NCBI GenBank assembly: GCA_025966365.1
Contig: JAICWV010000019.1
Span: 1 to 34,809 of the forward strand
Source of the DNA: Chloroflexota bacterium
GTDB lineage: Bacteria; Chloroflexota; UBA5177
Direction: 5' to 3'
DNA: 34,809 bases
Shown here: positions 10 to 8,661 of the stretch, one piece after another
Layout: every line of letters begins with the position of its first letter
Numbering within the stretch: position 1 is the first letter of the stretch
The notes under the pieces: generated by a model
Database searches by the model: none
Told to the model about the DNA's origin: nothing
Seen by the model: only the letters and a program-made list of their open reading frames with translations
Program-made: the position numbers and the translations under genes

Positions 10-861
10 ATGTCCTCGCCTCCCCGCCTCTATCCTACCGACCTGACTGATGCCGAGTGGCAGATTCTGGAGCCCCTCGTTCCCGCAGCCAAACCGGGAG
101 GCCGTCCACCGAAGTGGACGCGTCGCGCCATCCTGGACGGCATCTTCTACCTGGTGCGCTCCGGCTGTCACTGGCGCTTGCTGCCGCGCGAGTTCCCGCC
201 CTGGAAGACTATCTATCACTACTTTCGCGCCTGGCGCATCAATGGCACGTGGGAACGACTCAATGCCACGCTCCGGGACCGGGAGCGGACGCGGCAGGGG
301 CGCAATCCCCAACCAAGCGGGTGCATCATGGACAGCCAGTCGGCCAGGACCACCAGCGTAGGCGGCATCCGGGGCTACGATGGCGGCAAGAAGCTCAGTG
401 GACGGAAGCGGCATCTCCTGGTCGACACGCTGGGGTTGGTGCTGCGAGCCAATGTGCATGCCGCGGACATACAGGATCGGGCGGCCGTGCCGCAGGTGCT
501 CAACGGGGTGAAGGAGCGGTTCGGCCGTCTGGCCCACATCTGGCTGGATCAGGGGTATACCGGCGCCGGCAGGGCCTGGATCGAGCGGGAGCTGGGCTGG
601 AGTGTCGAGATCGTCAAGCATGCCCCACGGCCACGCGGGATCTGGGTCTTTCCCGGGCAGGAGGTCGATCCTACCATCTTCCAGCGACCCAAGGGGTTCC
701 GGCATCTCCCGCGTCGGTGGGTCGTTGAGCGAACGTTCTCGTGGTTCGGCCAGGCACGCCGGTTGTCCAAGGACTACGAGCGGCTACCCGAGACCGAGGA
801 GGCCATCATCTATATCACCATGAGCCGGCTCATGCTCCGCCGCCTGGCCCGGGCTGCATGA
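10..861 (+). CDS. IS5-family DDE transposase
   Basis: This 283-residue protein would catalyse cut-and-paste movement of the IS. The N-terminal part (about 8-85) is the DUF4096-type segment common in IS5-group transposases (DLTDAEWQILEPL, then SGCHWRLLPREFPPW). The DDE core follows: D108 in IMDSQSA, D180 in LDQGY, and E240 in WVVERTFSW, with the Y-R/E-type context expected around the last acid. Length and motif spacing match complete members, and there is no frameshift. The ATG at 10 gives the normal N-terminus; its ribosome site would lie at or beyond the window edge. It is followed directly by the inferred right terminal repeat. Exact subgroup within IS5 was not determined. Confidence 0.93.
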   Translation: MSSPPRLYPTDLTDAEWQILEPLVPAAKPGGRPPKWTRRAILDGIFYLVRSGCHWRLLPREFPPWKTIYHYFRAWRINGTWERLNATLRDRERTRQGRNPQPSGCIMDSQSARTTSVGGIRGYDGGKKLSGRKRHLLVDTLGLVLRANVHAADIQDRAAVPQVLNGVKERFGRLAHIWLDQGYTGAGRAWIERELGWSVEIVKHAPRPRGIWVFPGQEVDPTIFQRPKGFRHLPRRWVVERTFSWFGQARRLSKDYERLPETEEAIIYITMSRLMLRRLARAA

Positions 862-862
862 C

Positions 863-881
863 CCTTTTCCGACAGCTTCTA
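863..881. repeat. Probable right terminal inverted repeat of the IS
   Basis: Immediately after the transposase stop lies CCCTTTTCCGACAGCTTCT, whose complement (AGAAGCTGTCGGAAAAGGG) resembles known IS5-type ends. The left partner cannot be checked in this window. Confidence 0.55.
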
Positions 882-883
882 GG

Positions 884-1103
884 TGTCGCATGCCGTGCGC
901 CACGGCGATCAGCCGACCCAGCGCGACGAGAAGGAGAGCTCGCGGCAGCATAAGGCGGTCATCACCAATTTTGGCGGCCAGGTCCGAGCGACGTATGCCA
1001 AGACGGGCAGCGAGGAGAGGTCACGATGGGATCCCAGCCGCTCCCACGGTCGCATTATCGACGTTCGGTGGTACAGCATCATACGGACGTGCTGCTACTA
1101 CGG
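884..1103. other. Gene-free stretch between the IS and the nuclease gene
   Basis: No reading frame here has a ribosome site, a recognisable motif or a plausible length. Short open frames on the plus strand run antisense into the downstream nuclease gene and look like noise. It may be debris left beside the IS insertion. No terminator hairpin was recognised, although the minus-strand nuclease gene ends at its right border. Confidence 0.5.
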
Positions 1104-2090
1104 TTACGTCGATGGTCGACGCACAAGAAGGTCGCGCAGGTATGCTTGCCAGAAGTCTTTGAACGTGATGTCGCCATTCGCTAGGGTGAGCACGTCATCG
1201 CGTTCCATGAGTACGACTGTCCGGTTGCGCGTGTTCCGAGATTCGGTTTTCGCTCCCTCAGTGAAGCCGGACATGGACACATAGAGTCCGTTCACAAACG
1301 AGGGTCGCTTCGCCAGCTTGCCGGTGATGTTGTAAATGACTTCCGGTTCGAGGGGAGTGCCCTCCCAACGACACTCGATCAGAACCCACTCTGGGTCCGT
1401 CATGAATAAGTCCACCTGCTCGGACTCACCCGGAAGGCCCCGCTCGACATGACAGCCGTGGGCCTCAAGTAGGGCCTCAATCATGCCTTCGAATTGCCTA
1501 CCACGCGCCTGCCGATTGGTGGACCGCTCCAGTGTCTCGAGTTGGCCGCGCACGCGTGCAAGAGCATCGTGATCAAGAAGCTCTCCCTTAATCGCTTGTT
1601 CGAATTGGACCGCTGCGGCATCGGCATCTGCCTGATGGACGCCATCCTCCTCCGGCACAGCGAACTGTGGCAGCACCGTGTCTGCTTCGAGCGACCCAGC
1701 TATTTCCCGCTCGTCATGCAACGTCCAGTTCACGCCCTCAAGGAACGCCAGCGCCACCGCCCTGGCACGATGATCTTTCGGCATGTGCATGAACTCCCAG
1801 TCCGCGAACTGCTCATGCTCCCAGTGCTCGATGACACTGAAGGTGTCAACTGTCGCCGGCCGGACGAATATCCACGCGGCGCTCAAGGTAGCGACGGCCA
1901 CGACTTCCACCGAGCCGAATAGGGCGAACGTGCCGGGCATCTGCCGGTATTCGAGCTGCCAGTACTTCTCAACCCGATCCCGATACGCGCTGAGGAGCCG
2001 CCGAAAGTAGGCGAAGTATGCCTCTTCCCACGCTTCCGTCCACTCGCGGCTCGGGGTGAACGGATAACCAAATCGAACTGGGTATGTCAT
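1104..2090 (-). CDS. PD-(D/E)XK restriction-endonuclease-like protein
   Basis: A 328-residue protein whose C-terminal third carries a restriction-endonuclease-like fold signature: R198-Q-F-E201 on a helix, then D227 (EQVDLFM), then a beta strand ending E239-C-R241 (WVLIECRW). This matches the E...D...ExK layout of Mrr-type nucleases, with arginine in place of the usual lysine. The following text (VIYNITGKLAKRPSFVNGLYVSMSGF) fits the helix-strand that completes the fold. The N-terminal 190 residues are alpha-helical and charged, not recognised, and may be a target-sensing part. A GGGAG ribosome site lies about 8 bases before the ATG. No methylase lies nearby, so it is not a classical restriction-modification pair. 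It sits on the same strand as, and 117 bases downstream of, the HTH gene. A defence role is inference. Confidence 0.6.
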   Translation of the reverse strand: MTYPVRFGYPFTPSREWTEAWEEAYFAYFRRLLSAYRDRVEKYWQLEYRQMPGTFALFGSVEVVAVATLSAAWIFVRPATVDTFSVIEHWEHEQFADWEFMHMPKDHRARAVALAFLEGVNWTLHDEREIAGSLEADTVLPQFAVPEEDGVHQADADAAAVQFEQAIKGELLDHDALARVRGQLETLERSTNRQARGRQFEGMIEALLEAHGCHVERGLPGESEQVDLFMTDPEWVLIECRWEGTPLEPEVIYNITGKLAKRPSFVNGLYVSMSGFTEGAKTESRNTRNRTVVLMERDDVLTLANGDITFKDFWQAYLRDLLVRRPST

Positions 2091-2207
2091 ACGCGATCAC
2101 TCCCGACTACCTCAGGGACGGACTTCGAAGTGATCCAATCCGGTCCTTTCGTCATCAGGTAATACCGTAAGGCTGGCCATGTAGGGCAATCGGCCCTGCA
2201 GGACATC

Positions 2208-2432
2208 CTAGGACTCCTGCGGACTCTCCTCGACTGCTACGTGACCGCCCGGTCGATACCGCGCGACGAGGAAGCTGTCCAGATCCCCGCGCTTGATACG
2301 CCAGCCCGATTTGTCGCTCAGGTAGTACCCGGCAAGCTCGCCGCCGCGCAGCCACCGGCGGACGGTCTCAACCGACACGCCGAGCTCAACGGCCACGTCC
2401 TTGACGGTCAGGTATGCCCGTTCATCACTCAT
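2208..2432 (-). CDS. Excisionase-like / MerR-type helix-turn-helix protein
   Basis: This 74-residue protein is essentially one DNA-binding domain of the HTH_17 (excisionase/MerR-like) class: LTVKDVAVELGVSVETVRRWLRGGELAGYYLSDKSGWRI, followed by RGDLDSFLVAR. The helix-turn-helix is at about residues 8-30 and the wing residues at 36-48. Such proteins act as recombination directionality factors or small repressors in integrative elements. The tyrosine integrase 1.2 kb away makes the excisionase role plausible but unproven. The ribosome site CTATGAGGT precedes the ATG and resembles the site of the divergent gene at 2541. It could instead be the regulator of the divergent promoter region. Confidence 0.8.
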   Translation of the reverse strand: MSDERAYLTVKDVAVELGVSVETVRRWLRGGELAGYYLSDKSGWRIKRGDLDSFLVARYRPGGHVAVEESPQES

Positions 2433-2540
2433 AGTCGTTGTACCTCATAGCAAAGCATAACATAGCGCACCGTGTTGTTGTAAATGCAGCAAAGGTGTAT
2501 TACAGTGTCGTCGTAAGTCGTTCTATGAGGAGGTACTACG
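2433..2540. promoter_or_regulatory. Divergent promoter region of the HTH and SWIM genes
   Basis: This 108-base AT-richer gap separates two diverging genes. On the plus strand TTGTTG (about 2474) and TATTAC (about 2497) are 17 bases apart and could be a weak -35/-10 pair. Both genes have near-identical Shine-Dalgarno surroundings (CTATGAGG before each start), giving the gap an inverted-repeat appearance at its two ends. Control by the HTH protein is inference. Confidence 0.35.
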
Positions 2541-2810
2541 ATGAGCACCGCACCCTTACCGCACAGTTGGAAACGGGCGATGGAGCGGGCAGCGGCCGAT
2601 CACCTGCACGCTATCCGGCTGAACCGGCTTGCCTATGCCGTGCGCAGTACGGAGCACGCACCGGGCACCCATCATGTCGTCAGGCTCGATCCGTCGGGGC
2701 GAATTGTCGGCTGCTCGGAGTGCCCTGGTTGGAAAGGTCGCCACCACCCGTGCAAACACGCGGGCTGCGTTGCGCGACGACTGCTTCGGGAACAGCGAAA
2801 GGATCGGTGA
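2541..2810 (+). CDS. Small SWIM-type zinc-finger protein
   Basis: An 89-residue protein with a strong GAGGAGGT ribosome site 6 bases before its ATG. The C-terminal half contains CSECPGWKGRHHPCKHAGC, that is C-x2-C ... C-K-H, the arrangement of a SWIM zinc finger (usually CxC...CxH, with a CxxC variant here). The centre (HHVVRLDPSGRIVGCSECPGW) reads like the beta hairpin that leads into a SWIM finger. SWIM domains bind nucleic acid or protein. The stand-alone form is seen in plasmids and integrative elements. It begins a plus-strand group with the genes at 2882 and 3135. The exact function is unknown. Confidence 0.65.
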   Translation: MSTAPLPHSWKRAMERAAADHLHAIRLNRLAYAVRSTEHAPGTHHVVRLDPSGRIVGCSECPGWKGRHHPCKHAGCVARRLLREQRKDR

Positions 2811-2881
2811 TCGATGCGCTGAGAGAGGGAATGATGTCACCCACGATGAACACAATCCACAGAAGGGAAAGAGAGTTGACG

Positions 2882-3142
2882 ATGAAAATTTCCGCCACCG
2901 AGACCGGTTCATGCCCCTTCGCGCTACTGTCAGCACCAGAGCGAGTGGTGCGCGTGGAGGATCAGGACGACTACTTGGAGTTGGTTGTCGATATCGCTGA
3001 GAGCGGGCTACCGTGCTCATACGTCAGCGTGTCCGCCGGTTACCTGAATGACCGCGTTCCATGCGAGGTCTTCACCAGCACCATTCCTGTTGCCCGCCTG
3101 CAAGAAGCACTCGGTGTGCTTGCCGGGGGAAGCCGTGGATAA
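2882..3142 (+). CDS. Hypothetical protein, 86 residues
   Basis: Not recognised. The start at 2882 (MKISATETGSCPF) is chosen because an AGAAGGGAAAGAGAG purine run lies just before it; the frame stays open upstream but has no better ribosome site near an earlier start. The protein is acidic, with a predicted strand-helix-strand mix (VVRVEDQDDYLELVVDIAE) and no membrane segment or signal peptide. It has two cysteines (C11, C45) and one more near C61, which are not in a clear metal motif. Its stop overlaps the next gene's start by 8 bases, so the two are probably translated together. It lies within the mobile-element region between the SWIM protein and the integrase. Confidence 0.6.
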   Translation: MKISATETGSCPFALLSAPERVVRVEDQDDYLELVVDIAESGLPCSYVSVSAGYLNDRVPCEVFTSTIPVARLQEALGVLAGGSRG

Positions 3143-3524
3143 CACGAACTACGTGGACATGCGCATCGCGCAGTTGCGCCGTGATGTCTTCTCCGAACTG
3201 GAGGAGATTGAAGGAAGGCTGATGGAAGCGATAACTGAGCAAGTCCCTCAGCCGCTCGATGCAGTCACGATCGTAGGGCTGTCGGCCCTCCTACACGAGG
3301 AGGACACGCCTGATCCAATCCGGCTGATCGTTCAGCGCGATGGGAACCGGTTCGGCGCGCGGATCAGGCGGCAGGGCACCGGCTTCGGCGTTCAGCTCAC
3401 TGACGCGACTGGTCGGCACGTCGTGACCGGTGACGATGAATCACACGAAACGCTGGAGTCGGCTGTAACCGCCGCACTCTACCAGGCAATTGTTTGTAGC
3501 GACCGCAAAGGTACGACGAGATAA
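3135..3524 (+). CDS. Hypothetical protein, 129 residues, coupled to the upstream gene
   Basis: Not recognised. The GTG at 3135 is preferred: it follows GGGGGAA with short spacing and overlaps the preceding stop by 8 bases. Earlier in-frame starts (3048) would run deep into the upstream gene, and the ATG at 3159 has no ribosome site. The N-terminal 35 residues form a charged likely coiled helix (RRDVFSELEEIEGRLMEAI). The middle and C-terminal parts look like an antiparallel sheet (PIRLIVQRDGNRFGARIRRQGTG...) followed by a helix with ESAVTAALYQAIV. There is no signal peptide or membrane segment. A terminator follows 9 bases after the stop. Confidence 0.6.
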   Translation: MDNTNYVDMRIAQLRRDVFSELEEIEGRLMEAITEQVPQPLDAVTIVGLSALLHEEDTPDPIRLIVQRDGNRFGARIRRQGTGFGVQLTDATGRHVVTGDDESHETLESAVTAALYQAIVCSDRKGTTR

Positions 3525-3533
3525 CCAGCAGAG

Positions 3534-3575
3534 GAACGGGGAGTGGCTGAACACCACTCCCCGTTCTTGCATTTC
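3534..3575 (+). terminator. Rho-independent-type terminator before the integrase
   Basis: A perfect 13-base-pair stem (GAACGGGGAGTGG at 3534-3546 and CCACTCCCCGTTC at 3554-3566) with a 7-base loop is followed by TTGCATTT. It ends the 2541-3524 gene group and separates it from the integrase, whose ribosome site starts 12 bases later. Because of this the integrase probably relies on its own promoter or on read-through. Confidence 0.8.
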
Positions 3576-3591
3576 AGTGAGGAGAAACGCA

Positions 3592-4758
3592 GTGACACGG
3601 CAATACGGAAACGGTGCAATCGCAAGCCTCAAGGACGGCAGTGGCAAGGTAGTCGGATACAGAGGACAGCCGACGATCGGCGGCAAGCGGTACTCATTTA
3701 GAGCCAAAACGAAGGGTGAAGTGCGACGCATGATCGACGAGGCGAAGGTCGCACACGCCCAAGGACGACTTCACGCAGATAAGACTCAGACCGTCTCCGA
3801 ATATCTGTGGGGCTGGCTGGAGACAAAGCGGCGCAGTCAGAATCTGCGCGTGAAGACCCTTGAGTGCTACGAGTTGAACATCCGGGAGCGCCTCGTGCCG
3901 CACATTGGGACCAAGAAACTGAGTGATCTCCGACCAGCTGAGGTGCAGGACACCTACAACCAGCTTCTTGCTCGGGGTCTTTCGCCGTTCTCTGTCATTC
4001 AAGCCCACCGCCTGCTCCACAAGGCTCTGGCCGACGCGGTGAAGCTGGACATTATCGCCCGCAACGTAACCGAGGCCGTCGATCCGCCCCGCGTTCCTCG
4101 CAAGGAGATGAAGACGCTGACCGCTGACCAACTTGAAACCCTGTTCGAAGCGACGCGCGGGGATCGTTTCCATGCTCTCTGGATTGTGCTGGGACTTGTG
4201 GGCCTGCGCCGCAGCGAGGCGGTCGGGTTGAGGTGGGGCGATATCGACTTCGAAGCCGGGACTCTGACCGTCAAGCGGGGCCTCCACCGATACAAGCGCG
4301 GTGGTGGGCTGCAGTTTACGGAGCCTAAAAGCGAGACGAGCCGCCGTACAGTCCACCTCCCCAAGTCGGTTATCCGTGCCCTGCACGAGCGGAAGGAACA
4401 GCAGGCGTTTGAACGGAATGCTGCACGAGGCGGCTGGGAGGAGCATGATTTGGTCTTCGCAACCGTGTTCGGAAAGCCGCTTGATCCGAACCGCGTCAAC
4501 TACTACTTTCGCAAGGCGCTGGACAAGGCCGGACTTCCAAGTGTCCGAGTACACGACATGCGCCACTCATGTGCAACCGTCCATATGAAGAACGGTGTGA
4601 ACGGGCCTACAGTCCAGCGGTGGCTGGGGCACAGCAGTATCACTTTGACGCTCGGCACGTATTCCCATGTGAGCGCCGACATGTTGGAGGACGCCGCGGA
4701 AAGGATGGACATCTTGTTTGACCGAGAGGGCCACGTCGCCGAAAAGGCGGTGTTGTAA
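3592..4758 (+). CDS. Tyrosine-type site-specific integrase
   Basis: A 388-residue phage-type integrase. The GTG start at 3592 follows a GTGAGGAG ribosome site; the frame also runs upstream through a terminator, so longer starts are unlikely. The N-terminal arm-binding part contains a short AP2-like strand block (GNGAIASLKDGSGKVVGYRGQPTIGG, about 6-31). The core-binding SAM-like domain spans about 65-165. The catalytic domain carries R206 (GLRRSEAVGLRW), K246 (TEPKSETSRRTVHL), H321-x2-R324 (VHDMRHSCAT), H347 (WLGHSS) and the nucleophile Y357 (LGTYSHV). All catalytic residues are present, so the enzyme should be functional. It probably inserted the surrounding element. The adjacent serine tRNAs are candidate targets, but no attachment repeat was found. 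Confidence 0.94.
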   Translation: MTRQYGNGAIASLKDGSGKVVGYRGQPTIGGKRYSFRAKTKGEVRRMIDEAKVAHAQGRLHADKTQTVSEYLWGWLETKRRSQNLRVKTLECYELNIRERLVPHIGTKKLSDLRPAEVQDTYNQLLARGLSPFSVIQAHRLLHKALADAVKLDIIARNVTEAVDPPRVPRKEMKTLTADQLETLFEATRGDRFHALWIVLGLVGLRRSEAVGLRWGDIDFEAGTLTVKRGLHRYKRGGGLQFTEPKSETSRRTVHLPKSVIRALHERKEQQAFERNAARGGWEEHDLVFATVFGKPLDPNRVNYYFRKALDKAGLPSVRVHDMRHSCATVHMKNGVNGPTVQRWLGHSSITLTLGTYSHVSADMLEDAAERMDILFDREGHVAEKAVL

Positions 4759-4769
4759 AGGACATTCGT

Positions 4770-4811
4770 TGCTCGGCCTTGACAATGCGATGCTCGGCCT
4801 TGACAATGCGA
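4770..4811 (+). repeat. Perfect 21-base tandem duplication after the integrase
   Basis: The unit TGCTCGGCCTTGACAATGCGA occurs twice, head to tail, at 4770-4790 and 4791-4811. Each unit contains a perfect -35-like TTGACA (4779-4784 and 4800-4805). The first lies 17 bases upstream of GACAAT (4802-4807), so the duplication itself could create a promoter for the gene at 4934. Alternatively these could be integrase arm-binding sites, which often occur as short direct repeats beside int. Nothing further was recognised in the rest of the 4759-4933 gap. Confidence 0.8.
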
Positions 4812-4933
4812 TAGCGAGAACCCGGGCGCAGAGGTATGGATCGGAGCGTTGATCTCAGTCGCGACATCGGGTAAGGTAACGAAGCACGGTGATTCGTGCG
4901 TAGCTCCCACGCGCTCAGTCGTCTAGGTGGTCC

Positions 4934-6154
4934 ATGCAAAGTTGCTTGCGCTGTGGCGAACAAGTCGGGGTACTGGTTGGGGCCTGGATCCCCCTTTGTG
5001 AACCCTGTGAGTCACTGCTATGCGAGCTCCCCGAAGGATACAGGCACGACGGATATTGTGCCGCGTGTGGTGGGGTGAAGCAGCGAAACGACTACGTGTG
5101 CGAGCTATGTGATTCACTCGGGCCAGGGGTGCAGGAAGTGTTCTGTACCGACTGCGGGAAGCGCCAATCCATAAAGGAGGTGCTTGATGCGTGGGAAGTG
5201 CCCGATGAAGCTGACGGATACCAGTTGCCCGGCACCGCCGCCTTCTGCCGAGACTGTCTTTTCCGCTGGGCTGACCGGTTGCAGGATACCCAGCTTTCCA
5301 TAGAGATGAGGGAGAAGCTTCTTGAACTCTATCGCGAGGAGCCGTGCCTTGTGGATAGGCTGCGTATGCTGCCTCTTGGGACACATTTCCCCATGCTGCC
5401 CCCCAGATATGGCCGCAAACTCCGCAGTGTAGTGAACTCCGAGCAAATCGGGTGCGCAGATTCACTGCTTGATCCCGAGGCCGAAGAACTTCCTGACCAT
5501 GTGTGCGCAGGGACAGCGGCTCGCTCTTGCTTACAAGCTGCGCACAGCAGGGACTGGCCCGGCCGACCGTCAGACAGGTCTGTCCTCTTATGGCGCGATG
5601 ACCACGCGATGGTCTCGGACGACCTTGACGAGTTAATTGCCCAATCGTCACTTAGTGACCCTTACACTCCGCCGTTACTGCCTGTAGTCTTCGACGGTGG
5701 AAAGGGTTGGTTCATGATGGCGGTACATCGCACATCGAAATACGGACGTGTGGAAGTGTACGGCACGGCTGACATACAGGGAGAGGCGGAGGGCCTAATT
5801 GGCCCTGCTCAACTGAGCACGACAACAGCGCAACCCACCCCCGAAGGGCTTCGGTGGATTCACCAACAGCAGACCGCCCTTCTTGACTGGTATCAGCGTG
5901 TTCTTCTGGGCAAGCGGTTTCAGCGCGCTCGTGGCCGTCCACCTGGTTCCTCAGACCTTCTCCGGTCAGCTCAAGCAAAGTATCCCGAGGCGGTCCGCGC
6001 GGCAATGCGCGGAAACCGGAACATGCGTGGCCCCTTGACGGCAAGTGATATTGCCCGTGAACTGCAGAAGCTAGAGGTTGATGCCTCCGATCGAACCGTG
6101 AGACGCTGGCTGAAAGAAGGCGAGTTACCGGCTCCGAACGATACCGCCGAATAA
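4934..6154 (+). CDS. Multi-zinc-ribbon protein with C-terminal helix-turn-helix
   Basis: A 406-residue protein of unknown function. The first 110 residues hold six regularly spaced CxxC pairs (C4/C7, C22/C25, C42/C45, C56/C59, C71/C74, C105/C108), enough for three zinc ribbons. The middle section (about 140-320) is not recognised. The C-terminus is a DNA-binding fold: ASDIARELQKLEVDASDRTVRRWLKEGELP, a helix-turn-helix like those of resolvase- or MerR-type proteins. An AGGTGG ribosome site sits 5 bases before the ATG. It precedes the Cas4-like nuclease gene by 85 bases on the same strand. The combination suggests a DNA- or RNA-binding partner or regulator of that nuclease; this is inference. 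It may be specific to integrative elements. Confidence 0.65.
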   Translation: MQSCLRCGEQVGVLVGAWIPLCEPCESLLCELPEGYRHDGYCAACGGVKQRNDYVCELCDSLGPGVQEVFCTDCGKRQSIKEVLDAWEVPDEADGYQLPGTAAFCRDCLFRWADRLQDTQLSIEMREKLLELYREEPCLVDRLRMLPLGTHFPMLPPRYGRKLRSVVNSEQIGCADSLLDPEAEELPDHVCAGTAARSCLQAAHSRDWPGRPSDRSVLLWRDDHAMVSDDLDELIAQSSLSDPYTPPLLPVVFDGGKGWFMMAVHRTSKYGRVEVYGTADIQGEAEGLIGPAQLSTTTAQPTPEGLRWIHQQQTALLDWYQRVLLGKRFQRARGRPPGSSDLLRSAQAKYPEAVRAAMRGNRNMRGPLTASDIARELQKLEVDASDRTVRRWLKEGELPAPNDTAE

Positions 6155-6179
6155 TTTGCCGTTTTCTTGCCACCTGGGC

Positions 6180-6194
6180 GGGTCAGTGTGACCC
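6180..6194. promoter_or_regulatory. Small palindrome upstream of the nuclease gene, possible operator
   Basis: GGGTCA-GTG-TGACCC is a perfect 6-base inverted repeat with a 3-base centre. It lies 45 bases before the nuclease start and after the stop of the HTH protein gene. It has the size of a dimeric repressor site, but no regulator is assigned. Being short, it may be chance or a weak hairpin. Confidence 0.3.
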
Positions 6195-6239
6195 ATGCTG
6201 GACGTATTCGAACCGTACAGCACCCCAGGAGGTAACCGC

Positions 6240-7091
6240 ATGGACGCCGGGCTCACGACCACAACGACAACCGCAGCGCCTCAATCCAAGTCCCGGACCT
6301 ACCGCATCACGCCACGCGAACTCGACACGTACCAAGCGTGCGCATTCAAATTCGCGGCCGATCGTCGTGGCAAGCAGCAGAAAGTATGGCAACCCCAGCC
6401 GAGTAGCTTCCCACTGGCGCTCGGCAACGCCGTCCACGACGCGCTCAACCAGGCGAACCGCCAGGCCATGAAACGAGGGAGCTTGCCAAGCGCCGATGAA
6501 GTGTTTGACCGCTTCTGGAATCGCTCCCGATTCGGCTCCACCGAGCAGGAGGTAGAGGCAGCCTACCTCGCGCGGCCAATGGTGGAGCAGTATCTCACCT
6601 ACGTCACGGACAACGATCTAGAGATCCTGGCGTCTGAGCAGTTCATCCTCACGCCAGAGATGCATATTGGGGAAGGCATCTACCTGATCATCAGTGGCAA
6701 GCTCGATGTCCTGTTTCGGCGTCCCGGCGGCGCGCTCATGTATCAGGATCACAAGACAGGGAGTCAGCTCCCGACACCGGACATTCTGGAATACGCTTTG
6801 TCGAGCGCGGCCTACAGGGGCCTGGTCCGACGTCTCCAGCCACGCGCCGAGACGATATTGATTAGCCAGCGCCTGCTGTCGACCGGTGCTGAAGTGACTG
6901 TTGATCTGAGCGACGACGTAGTCCAGGCCGCCAAGCAGCAGATGGCCGACCTCGTGCGCGCAATGGATGCAGATCCGGCCATGATCAGCGCAGCCTTCCA
7001 GCCATCCGAGAACGAGCAGTGTGCTTGGTGCCCGCACCAGTCAGTGTGCCCCCTGCTCGCCGCTGGCAGTGAGGAAGGAGTGGCGTTGTAA
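6240..7091 (+). CDS. Cas4/AddB-like PD-(D/E)XK nuclease with four cysteines
   Basis: A 283-residue stand-alone nuclease. The ATG at 6240 is chosen because AGGAGGT lies 8 bases upstream; an earlier ATG at 6195 has no such site. Motifs in order: C34 (YQACAFKF), GNAVHDAL with H66, ISGKLDVLF with D156, YQDHKTG with D170 and K172, and a C-terminal cluster C261-x2-C264-x5-C270 (CAWCPHQSVC). One N-terminal plus three C-terminal cysteines around a RecB-type core is the iron-sulphur layout of Cas4 and AddB exonucleases. There is no cas1, cas2 or CRISPR in the window, so a CRISPR role is not supported. It overlaps the WGR gene by one base (TAATG). It may process DNA ends for the element or act in defence. 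Confidence 0.82.
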   Translation: MDAGLTTTTTTAAPQSKSRTYRITPRELDTYQACAFKFAADRRGKQQKVWQPQPSSFPLALGNAVHDALNQANRQAMKRGSLPSADEVFDRFWNRSRFGSTEQEVEAAYLARPMVEQYLTYVTDNDLEILASEQFILTPEMHIGEGIYLIISGKLDVLFRRPGGALMYQDHKTGSQLPTPDILEYALSSAAYRGLVRRLQPRAETILISQRLLSTGAEVTVDLSDDVVQAAKQQMADLVRAMDADPAMISAAFQPSENEQCAWCPHQSVCPLLAAGSEEGVAL

Positions 7092-7366
7092 TGGCCAGGC
7101 GTCACGACCTCCCACTGCTTCCTCCCTTCCACTCCTACATCGCCTTCACGAGCATCGACCCCGCCCGGAACAGACGTCGCGCGTACCGCATCGTGATCGT
7201 GCCCATGGACCGCGCCTACGCTGTCGTAACGTACCGAGGTCGGGTGAGCGGAACGCAACAGGTGCTGATCGAGCCGTGTACCACGTGGGAAGCGGCGATG
7301 GAGCTTGCCGAAAGGCGTGCTCACGACCGGCTCCTGCACGGCTACACCGTCGAATCGGCAGCCTGA
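7091..7366 (+). CDS. Stand-alone WGR-domain protein
   Basis: A 91-residue protein that is nearly all WGR domain: AYRIVIVPMDRAYAVVTYRGRVSG (strand pair with an RGR in place of the WGR tripeptide), then QQVLIEPCTTWEAAMELAERRAHDRLLHGYTV, which matches the conserved helix and the closing K/R-x-x-x-G-Y segment. WGR domains bind nucleic-acid ends in PARP proteins and occur in bacterial MolR-type proteins. Its ATG overlaps the nuclease stop (TAATG), which argues for translational coupling and for the two acting together. Naming it a DNA-end-binding partner of the nuclease is inference. A degraded copy of its last 57 bases lies at 8172-8228. Confidence 0.78.
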   Translation: MARRHDLPLLPPFHSYIAFTSIDPARNRRRAYRIVIVPMDRAYAVVTYRGRVSGTQQVLIEPCTTWEAAMELAERRAHDRLLHGYTVESAA

Positions 7367-7722
7367 CAAGCGGGGATGGGTGCGCCACCCGTATCCAGCC
7401 TCGCCTCCCACGCTCTCTGTGGAATCCTAAAGTTGTCCAGGAGCTCTCCACCACGGCTAACACGGCCCTTGGGGCTATATGACTGATAAGTAAGCTACAC
7501 GGATCGCTCAGGAGTCGAGGGGATCATCCGCCCGTCTGTGCTTGATCCGCGTCCAGTCTCCTAGGCCTCGGCTGCCACCGCGGCCAACGTGACGCCCAGG
7601 AGCGGCAAGAGCAGCGCCATCCGGGCCGCTCCGCTGCCAAGCTGAAGGACGTGCAGAACGCGGTGTGTGACAGCTAGGTACTAGGGCGAGAACGTGGTTA
7701 CTTGCGGAGCTTAACGGAAATC
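7367..7722. other. Gene-free stretch after the WGR gene
   Basis: There is no convincing gene here. Frames are short and lack ribosome sites. A small inverted repeat ATCCTAG/CTAGGAT lies at 7720-7739, overlapping the end of the 80-residue minus-strand gene. The 12-base string ATCCTAGGACTC at 7720-7731 also occurs at 2205-2216. Confidence 0.45.
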
Positions 7723-7965
7723 CTAGGACTCGCTAGGATCCTCGTGCGTCACGCTGAGGGTGACTTCTACATGCGCCGGGAGTGGTTTGATGCCGCCTTG
7801 CTTGCGTAGACAGTCCTCGATGAAAGTGCCAACCGCCATCTCCGGCGATATAACCGCGAAACTGCTGCGGCCCTCCTTCTCCCGCTCGACGGTGTAGTAC
7901 GTGTTCCCTCCCATCTCTATCGGCCCGGCTGGCACGACTCGGAAGGATACTGTGATTGGGTCCAT
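7723..7965 (-). CDS. Hypothetical protein, 80 residues
   Basis: Not recognised. The start at 7965 (MDPITVSFRVVPAGPIEMGG) is supported by AAGGAGCAAGCT just upstream. The frame stays open for another 106 codons upstream, but those lack a ribosome site and run antisense across the WGR remnant, so they were not included. The protein is acidic and likely mixed beta/alpha (a FRVVPAG strand, TYYTVERE, EMAVGTFIEDCLRKQ helix, AHVEVTLSV strand), with no membrane segment. It stands alone, flanked by the WGR gene and its remnant, in the segment just before the serine tRNAs. Confidence 0.5.
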   Translation of the reverse strand: MDPITVSFRVVPAGPIEMGGNTYYTVEREKEGRSSFAVISPEMAVGTFIEDCLRKQGGIKPLPAHVEVTLSVTHEDPSES

Positions 7966-8171
7966 AGCTTGCTCCTTATAGCCACGAGAGGGGCAAAGCG
8001 GTGCCCTGCCCCTCCGTATGCTTGCGCGGCTACTTCCGGACTGGCAGATGTCGTTCGGGAAGTCGGCGAAGTCCGTTCCGTTGACCACGTTGACTATCTG
8101 ACCGTAACAGTTGATGTCAACCCCAATCTTCTTGTGAGACGACATGAACTCGAAGTCGCTGCTGATCTGGA

Positions 8172-8228
8172 GAAAGGCGCGCTCACGACCGGCTCTTGCA
8201 ACGCTACACCGTCGAATCGGCTGCTTGA
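8172..8228 (+). pseudogene. Degraded copy of the WGR gene 3' end
   Basis: These 57 bases match 7310-7366 at 51 positions without gaps, and in the same frame read ERRAHDRLLQRYTVESAA followed by a stop. Upstream of about 8172 the frame is broken by a stop and a shift relative to the intact gene. This shows that a second WGR gene, or a duplicated element end, once lay here. It is the part nearest to the tRNA-Ser genes. Confidence 0.7.
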
Positions 8229-8346
8229 TTTTCATGGGCTGGAGTGCGCGTGCCTCCCGCCCGCTTGTGTTCTCTAGTGGCACTGCGCGGTGGCGGACAG
8301 GCAGCTACACTTGCGGAAAATGCCCCAGAATTGCACCGGAGCCCCC

Positions 8347-8397
8347 AAAAAACGCCGATGCGGGCGGCACCGGATAGACCCCGGCGGACGCCCGCAT
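8347..8397 (-). terminator. Terminator after the serine tRNA genes
   Basis: On the minus strand, ATGCGGGCG (8397-8389) pairs with CGCCCGCAT (8366-8358), with a further GC pairing inside. A run of six T (8352-8347) follows 5 bases later. It lies 35 bases downstream of tRNA-Ser(GCU), as expected for the end of the serS-tRNA unit. Confidence 0.75.
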
Positions 8398-8431
8398 GGT
8401 CAACTTTACGGCTTGTACAAGCCAAACAATC

Positions 8432-8519
8432 TGGCGGAGAGGGGGGGATTCGAACCCCCGACGGAGTTACCCGTAGCGGTTTAGCAAACCGCCGCACTAG
8501 GCCACTATGCGACCTCTCC
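8432..8519 (-). tRNA. tRNA-Ser, anticodon GCU
   Basis: The 88-base gene folds as a class II (long variable arm) tRNA: acceptor GGAGAGG/CCTCTCC (8519-8513 and 8442-8436), anticodon stem GCGGT/ACCGC around TTGCTAA giving GCU, T arm GGGGGTTCGAATCCCCC, discriminator G and encoded CCA (8434-8432). It reads AGC/AGU serine codons. It is next to tRNA-Ser(UGA) and serS and close to the mobile region, so its 3' end is a plausible integration target. Confidence 0.96.
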
Positions 8520-8539
8520 AGGCAGGCAAATTGTATCAC

Positions 8540-8626
8540 TGGCGGAGGGAGAGGGATTCGAACCCCCGAGGCTCATCACCTGGCTGTTTTCAAGACAGCT
8601 GCCTTCAACCGCTCGGCCATCCCTCC
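8540..8626 (-). tRNA. tRNA-Ser, anticodon UGA
   Basis: The 87-base class II tRNA has acceptor GGAGGGA/TCCCTCC (8626-8620 and 8550-8544), anticodon stem GCTGT/ACAGC around CTTGAAA giving UGA, a long variable arm, T arm with GTTCGAAT, discriminator G and encoded CCA (8542-8540). It reads UCN serine codons, chiefly UCA. It lies 35 bases after the serS stop on the same strand. Confidence 0.96.
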
Positions 8627-8661
8627 GAGCCGCCAAGTCTATTGACTTCGGCGGATTTCCG

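Follow-up and report, generated by a model that had tools for sequence, protein, structure and literature searches.

A Cas4-like nuclease gene overlapping a stand-alone WGR gene on a probable tRNA-associated integrative element of a Chloroflexota bacterium

Three same-strand genes of a Chloroflexota bacterium, which encode a zinc-ribbon/helix-turn-helix (HTH) protein, a RecB/Cas4-like nuclease, and a stand-alone WGR protein, raise the question of which of them belong together and what they might do. The genes lie in a 34,809-nucleotide stretch of contig JAICWV010000019.1 (assembly GCA_025966365.1, positions 1 to 34,809 of the forward strand), which is referred to here as the window. A first-pass annotation, made from the letters alone, had proposed that all three form one DNA-end-processing or defense module carried by an integrative element. 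We followed up this proposal by examining the genomic setting of the genes, the identity of each protein, and the recurrence of their combinations in other genomes and mobile elements.

RESULTS

Genomic setting of the three genes

The source genome (G000) is a Chloroflexota MAG that is 97% complete, and its class is represented by 7 genomes. The three genes are placed between a tyrosine integrase gene (3490 to 4758, plus strand; PF00589, E = 3.5e-26), one of a family found flanking tRNA genes, and tRNA-Ser(gct) (8432 to 8519, minus strand), the 3' end of which faces the element. Across the integrase from them sit an excisionase-like HTH gene (2208 to 2432, minus strand; TIGR01764, above the cut-off) and a gene for an Mrr_cat-type restriction endonuclease (1104 to 2090, minus strand; PF04471, E = 2.7e-10), which is probably further cargo of the element. 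The endonuclease also gives a partial match to the candidate defense family PDC-S02 (E = 3.2e-6). Between the excisionase-like gene and the integrase are a short SWIM-like zinc-finger open reading frame (ORF) that scores below its cut-off (2541 to 2810) and an ORF without any family match (3048 to 3524). In the gap between the integrase and the zinc-ribbon/HTH gene, a 21-bp unit (TTGCTCGGCCTTGACA-like) occurs twice in tandem (4764 to 4805), possibly as an operator or an integrase arm site, and a promoter-like site (4779 to 4807) overlaps this repeat region.

The proposed integrative element is borne out by this arrangement, in which the integrase, the excisionase-like gene, and tRNA-Ser adjoin, and by the relatives of the integrase, which also flank tRNA genes. 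At the integrase loci of related genomes, a tRNA gene lies within ∼170 bp in 5 of 11 cases and within ∼2.1 kb in 3 more, and two loci carry tRNA-derived direct repeats (45 bp of tRNA-Lys at L112 and 40 bp of tRNA-Ser at L110). The former (G005:C22:2500-12432, 191 to 5735) is a 5.5-kb integrative element bounded by the 45-bp tRNA-Lys repeats and containing an integrase, an excisionase-like gene, and a UvrD-type helicase fragment. The tRNA-Ser(gct) side is likely the attachment side of the element in the window; serS lies beyond the tRNAs, in the order serS-tRNA-Ser(tga)-tRNA-Ser(gct) that is also seen in genome G003. G000 lacks a counterpart of the gene that flanks the tRNA in G003. No direct repeat matching the 3' end of the tRNA was found in the window. 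The start of the contig falls within or close to the element, and since it is occupied by an IS-type transposase gene, the left (far) border may be lost.

A PD-(D/E)XK nuclease with FeS-type cysteines

The central gene (6240 to 7091, plus strand) encodes a 283-amino-acid nuclease of the PD-(D/E)XK superfamily, which belongs to the RecB/Cas4-like family PF12705 (PDDEXK_1; E = 2.4e-21, 77.2 bits against a cut-off of 22). Its ORF opens at 6195, but an AGGAGG precedes the ATG at 6240, which is the likely start. The active site (H, D, D-x-K) is complete, and its residues H81, D171, D185, and K187 are shared without change by the two nearest relatives of the window protein. The same is true of four cysteines in an FeS-type arrangement (C49, C276, C279, and C285, counted from 6195); these are the residues that had first been listed as C34, C261, C264, and C270, and the numbers differ because those were counted from the ATG at 6240. 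A structure model of the nuclease built from three sequences was of poor confidence (pLDDT 43).

The label "Cas4-like" in the first-pass annotation is a reasonable descriptor, but the score against the Cas4 model TIGR00372 is below its cut-off (11.6 bits against 65). No Cas1 was found in G000, and a role as a CRISPR-associated Cas4 is therefore excluded as far as a 97% complete genome allows. The closest phage profiles are those of the exonucleases phrog_1218 (E = 8.8e-12) and phrog_69 (E = 4.7e-11). Relatives of the nuclease were found in 13 of 400 genomes, its own included. The nearest (G006:C217, 34% identity) lies beside tRNA-Lys and is without a WGR gene. Scanning of genome contigs with the nuclease gave six loci only, four of which were new and distant, and the WGR profile detected no WGR neighbor at these or at the other loci of its relatives. 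The window nuclease had no matches in phages and plasmids by tblastn, and single-protein and alignment scans of viral contigs returned nothing.

A stand-alone protein of the WGR fold

The third gene (7091 to 7366, plus strand) encodes a 91-amino-acid protein, and its ATG overlaps the TAA stop codon of the nuclease gene at 7091, as first annotated. In this protein the WGR motif is replaced by YRGR, so that its tryptophan is missing, and the score falls narrowly below the cut-off of PF05406 (E = 3.5e-4, 21.1 bits against 22). A single-sequence model nevertheless predicts four strands and a helix at moderate confidence (pLDDT 65). In a Foldseek comparison of this model with the PDB, the WGR domains of PARP1/2/3 came out on top (probability 1.00, TM-score ∼0.6), with no E value below 0.04. 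The WGR assignment is thus confirmed at the level of the predicted fold.

WGR genes are rare in the phylum (17 of 350 genomes). The closest relative of the window WGR (45% identity) comes from the same bacterial family and is encoded at locus L027 (1896 to 2165; G006:C198). The two form a sister pair in a tree of 14 WGR sequences (clade support, 98/98) and share an N-terminal DLPxLPxF stretch. Weak WGR-like matches at loci L017 to L024 looked like chance upon inspection. Downstream of the window WGR gene, positions 8172 to 8228 (plus strand) are 89% identical to its last 57 bp, stop codon included (7310 to 7366), with an alignment score of 84 compared to at most 31 in 100 shuffles. The segment is the remnant of an earlier WGR gene copy next to the tRNA.

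Recurrence of the nuclease-WGR pair

The L027 WGR gene starts 9 bp behind a gene for a 225-amino-acid nuclease that matches PF12705 (24.9 bits) and bears Cas4-type (FeS) cysteines. This nuclease does not align with that of the window (blastp E = 2.4) and represents a different subfamily; its own relatives occur in 13 of 350 genomes, with an adjoining WGR gene in G006 alone. The genomes of the class hold only 0 to 4 PDDEXK_1 places each, and it is therefore unlikely by chance that two of two members of this WGR subfamily follow such a gene directly. The probability is ∼1 in a million (∼3 in 3,000 genes each), a figure of rough arithmetic for a subfamily chosen after the fact and for two loci that may share ancestry. 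Both loci belong to one taxonomic family. The nuclease and the WGR protein are plausible as a two-part pair. No adjoining nuclease gene was recognized at the further phylum WGR loci that were read in detail.

The zinc-ribbon/HTH gene (4934 to 6154, plus strand) was confirmed as an ORF encoding 406 amino acids, with the six CxxC pairs (C4/7, C22/25, C42/45, C56/59, C71/74, and C105/108) and the C-terminal HTH that had been described. Its matches to DZR_2, HTH_32, and MerR are each below the cut-off. The first-pass annotation joined it to the other two genes and named homologs that almost never occur together as the finding that would speak against a single module; the search of genomes returned this pattern, with relatives of the nuclease lacking both partners. 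A search of 400 Chloroflexota genomes at E = 0.001 gave no relative of the zinc-ribbon/HTH protein, and neither plasmids nor viral contigs yielded one; the pair in G006 is also without such a gene. A module of all three genes, in which the zinc-ribbon/HTH protein would bind DNA as a regulator or select targets, would agree with their common strand, with the gap of 85 bp that separates this gene from the nuclease start at 6240, and with the HTH, but these findings make it very improbable. At most, the gene encodes a neighboring regulator, with no evidence of belonging to the pair. What stands of the proposed linkage is the nuclease-WGR pair, which recurs in a second genome.

Stand-alone WGR genes on mobile elements

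Stand-alone WGR genes gave matches in 714 plasmid records. Among 20 sampled neighborhoods, traG was present in 9, and in 4 the WGR gene directly followed a thermonuclease gene on the same strand; most had other neighbors, and one lay 43 bp behind a tyrosine integrase. A WGR gene behind an integrase was also found in a Synechococcus phage record and in genome G020. On rhizobial plasmids, stand-alone WGR genes are often near transfer genes. In Rhizobium favelukesii, pLPU83a_0136/0137 form a thermonuclease-WGR operon next to traG and the transfer region, and the operon rises together with the transfer genes on loss of the repressor RcgR (PMC13055273). In Rickettsia felis, pRF34 is described as a WGR-containing protein that resembles DNA polymerase III epsilon (PMC1800911). 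The literature search found no paper that joins a WGR domain with Cas4 and a nuclease, and the papers found give no established function for stand-alone WGR genes. Overall, WGR is an accessory of mobile elements that has come to lie with nucleases repeatedly but has other neighbors more often.

Such varied company, the nuclease relatives without a WGR gene, the remnant of a second WGR copy, and the IS transposase at the contig start would all be expected if the nuclease and WGR genes had nothing to do with each other and came to adjoin by accident on a mobile element in decay. The overlap of the nuclease stop with the WGR start and the presence of the same WGR subfamily 9 bp behind another FeS nuclease argue against such an accident, which we regard as fairly improbable.

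Defense genes at related loci

The pair could also be defense cargo, in which the WGR protein would sense invading DNA by its free or nicked ends and the nuclease would destroy it. Loci with related integrases do bear defense genes, and the element in the window itself encodes the Mrr_cat protein. At one such locus (L109; G006:C18:6000-16000, 3 to 2662), DISARM DrmA and DrmB (E = 6e-70 and 4e-68) lie near the integrase, together with a methyltransferase, an AAA ATPase, and an amidoligase-like gene. At another (L107; G002:C17:167000-176833, 6518 to 8647), a GmrSD-type restriction endonuclease gene directly adjoins the integrase and tRNA-Arg. A 27% identical relative of the nuclease in G005 points the same way, in that the next gene encodes an NYN protein with a match to HEC-09 (E = 1.2e-46). 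At this locus (L030; G005:C115, 213 to 1905, minus strand), the gene for the PF12705 FeS nuclease overlaps the NYN gene, and the two are possibly another nuclease pair. Against a defensive role, the only matches of the nuclease to PADLOC models were weak ones (DruK and Cas4-like), the WGR protein had none, and none of the three proteins convincingly matched any PADLOC model of a known anti-phage system. The rhizobial nuclease-WGR operons, moreover, sit with transfer genes and not in defense islands. Taken together, we consider defense cargo an unlikely explanation.

DISCUSSION

A nuclease-WGR pair that may act on DNA ends

WGR domains of PARPs bind broken and nicked DNA. We tentatively favor, at just short of even chances, the reading that the nuclease and the WGR protein form a two-gene pair on a tRNA-Ser-associated integrative element, in which an end-binding WGR protein brings the nuclease to DNA ends. 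The evidence for this reading consists of the domains, the intact active site, the overlap of the two genes, the finding of this WGR subfamily after two FeS nucleases that are themselves unrelated, and the element context. Against it count the small number of loci (two, from a single taxonomic family), the relatives of either nuclease that have no WGR neighbor, the other company of most plasmid WGR genes, the missing tryptophan of the window WGR, and the poor model of the nuclease. By analogy with its family, the PD-(D/E)XK FeS nuclease would degrade or trim DNA from ends, while the co-translated WGR protein would hold DNA ends or nicks and, through a presumed physical interaction, recruit the nuclease there. 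Such a pair would most likely serve to process ends for the recombination or transfer of the element itself, or those of competing DNA.

More generally, we infer that WGR binds ends or nicks and is joined by mobile elements to nucleases of unrelated kinds, its partner here being a RecB/Cas4-type exonuclease. A bolder and rather doubtful extension would make WGR an interchangeable end-recognition subunit added to Cas4-like, thermonuclease, and DnaQ-type nucleases; the results would be a general class of two-part devices for DNA-end processing or defense, with the present Cas4-like pair as an undescribed branch. If stand-alone WGR proteins do recruit nucleases to DNA ends, this would account for an orphan family that is widespread and tie it to element transfer or defense.

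Comparison with known systems

A published parallel is the pLPU83a_0136/0137 operon, in which a small stand-alone WGR gene is likewise joined to a nuclease gene and carried by a mobile element (PMC13055273). Its nuclease, however, is of the SNase type, whereas that of the window is a PD-(D/E)XK FeS nuclease, and it lies in the transfer region of a conjugative plasmid rather than on an integrated element. The pfam12705 and mobile-element Cas4-like nucleases (PMC5704561) share with the window nuclease the PF12705 fold family, the four FeS-type cysteines, and a location outside CRISPR loci. The window nuclease differs from them in having a WGR partner and no helicase fusion, and WGR is absent from that paper. 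The window WGR resembles those of PARP1/2/3 in predicted fold but is a stand-alone protein without an ADP-ribosyltransferase. The pair in G006 matches the window in placing a related WGR gene behind an FeS PD-(D/E)XK nuclease and departs from it in the nuclease subfamily that the WGR gene follows.
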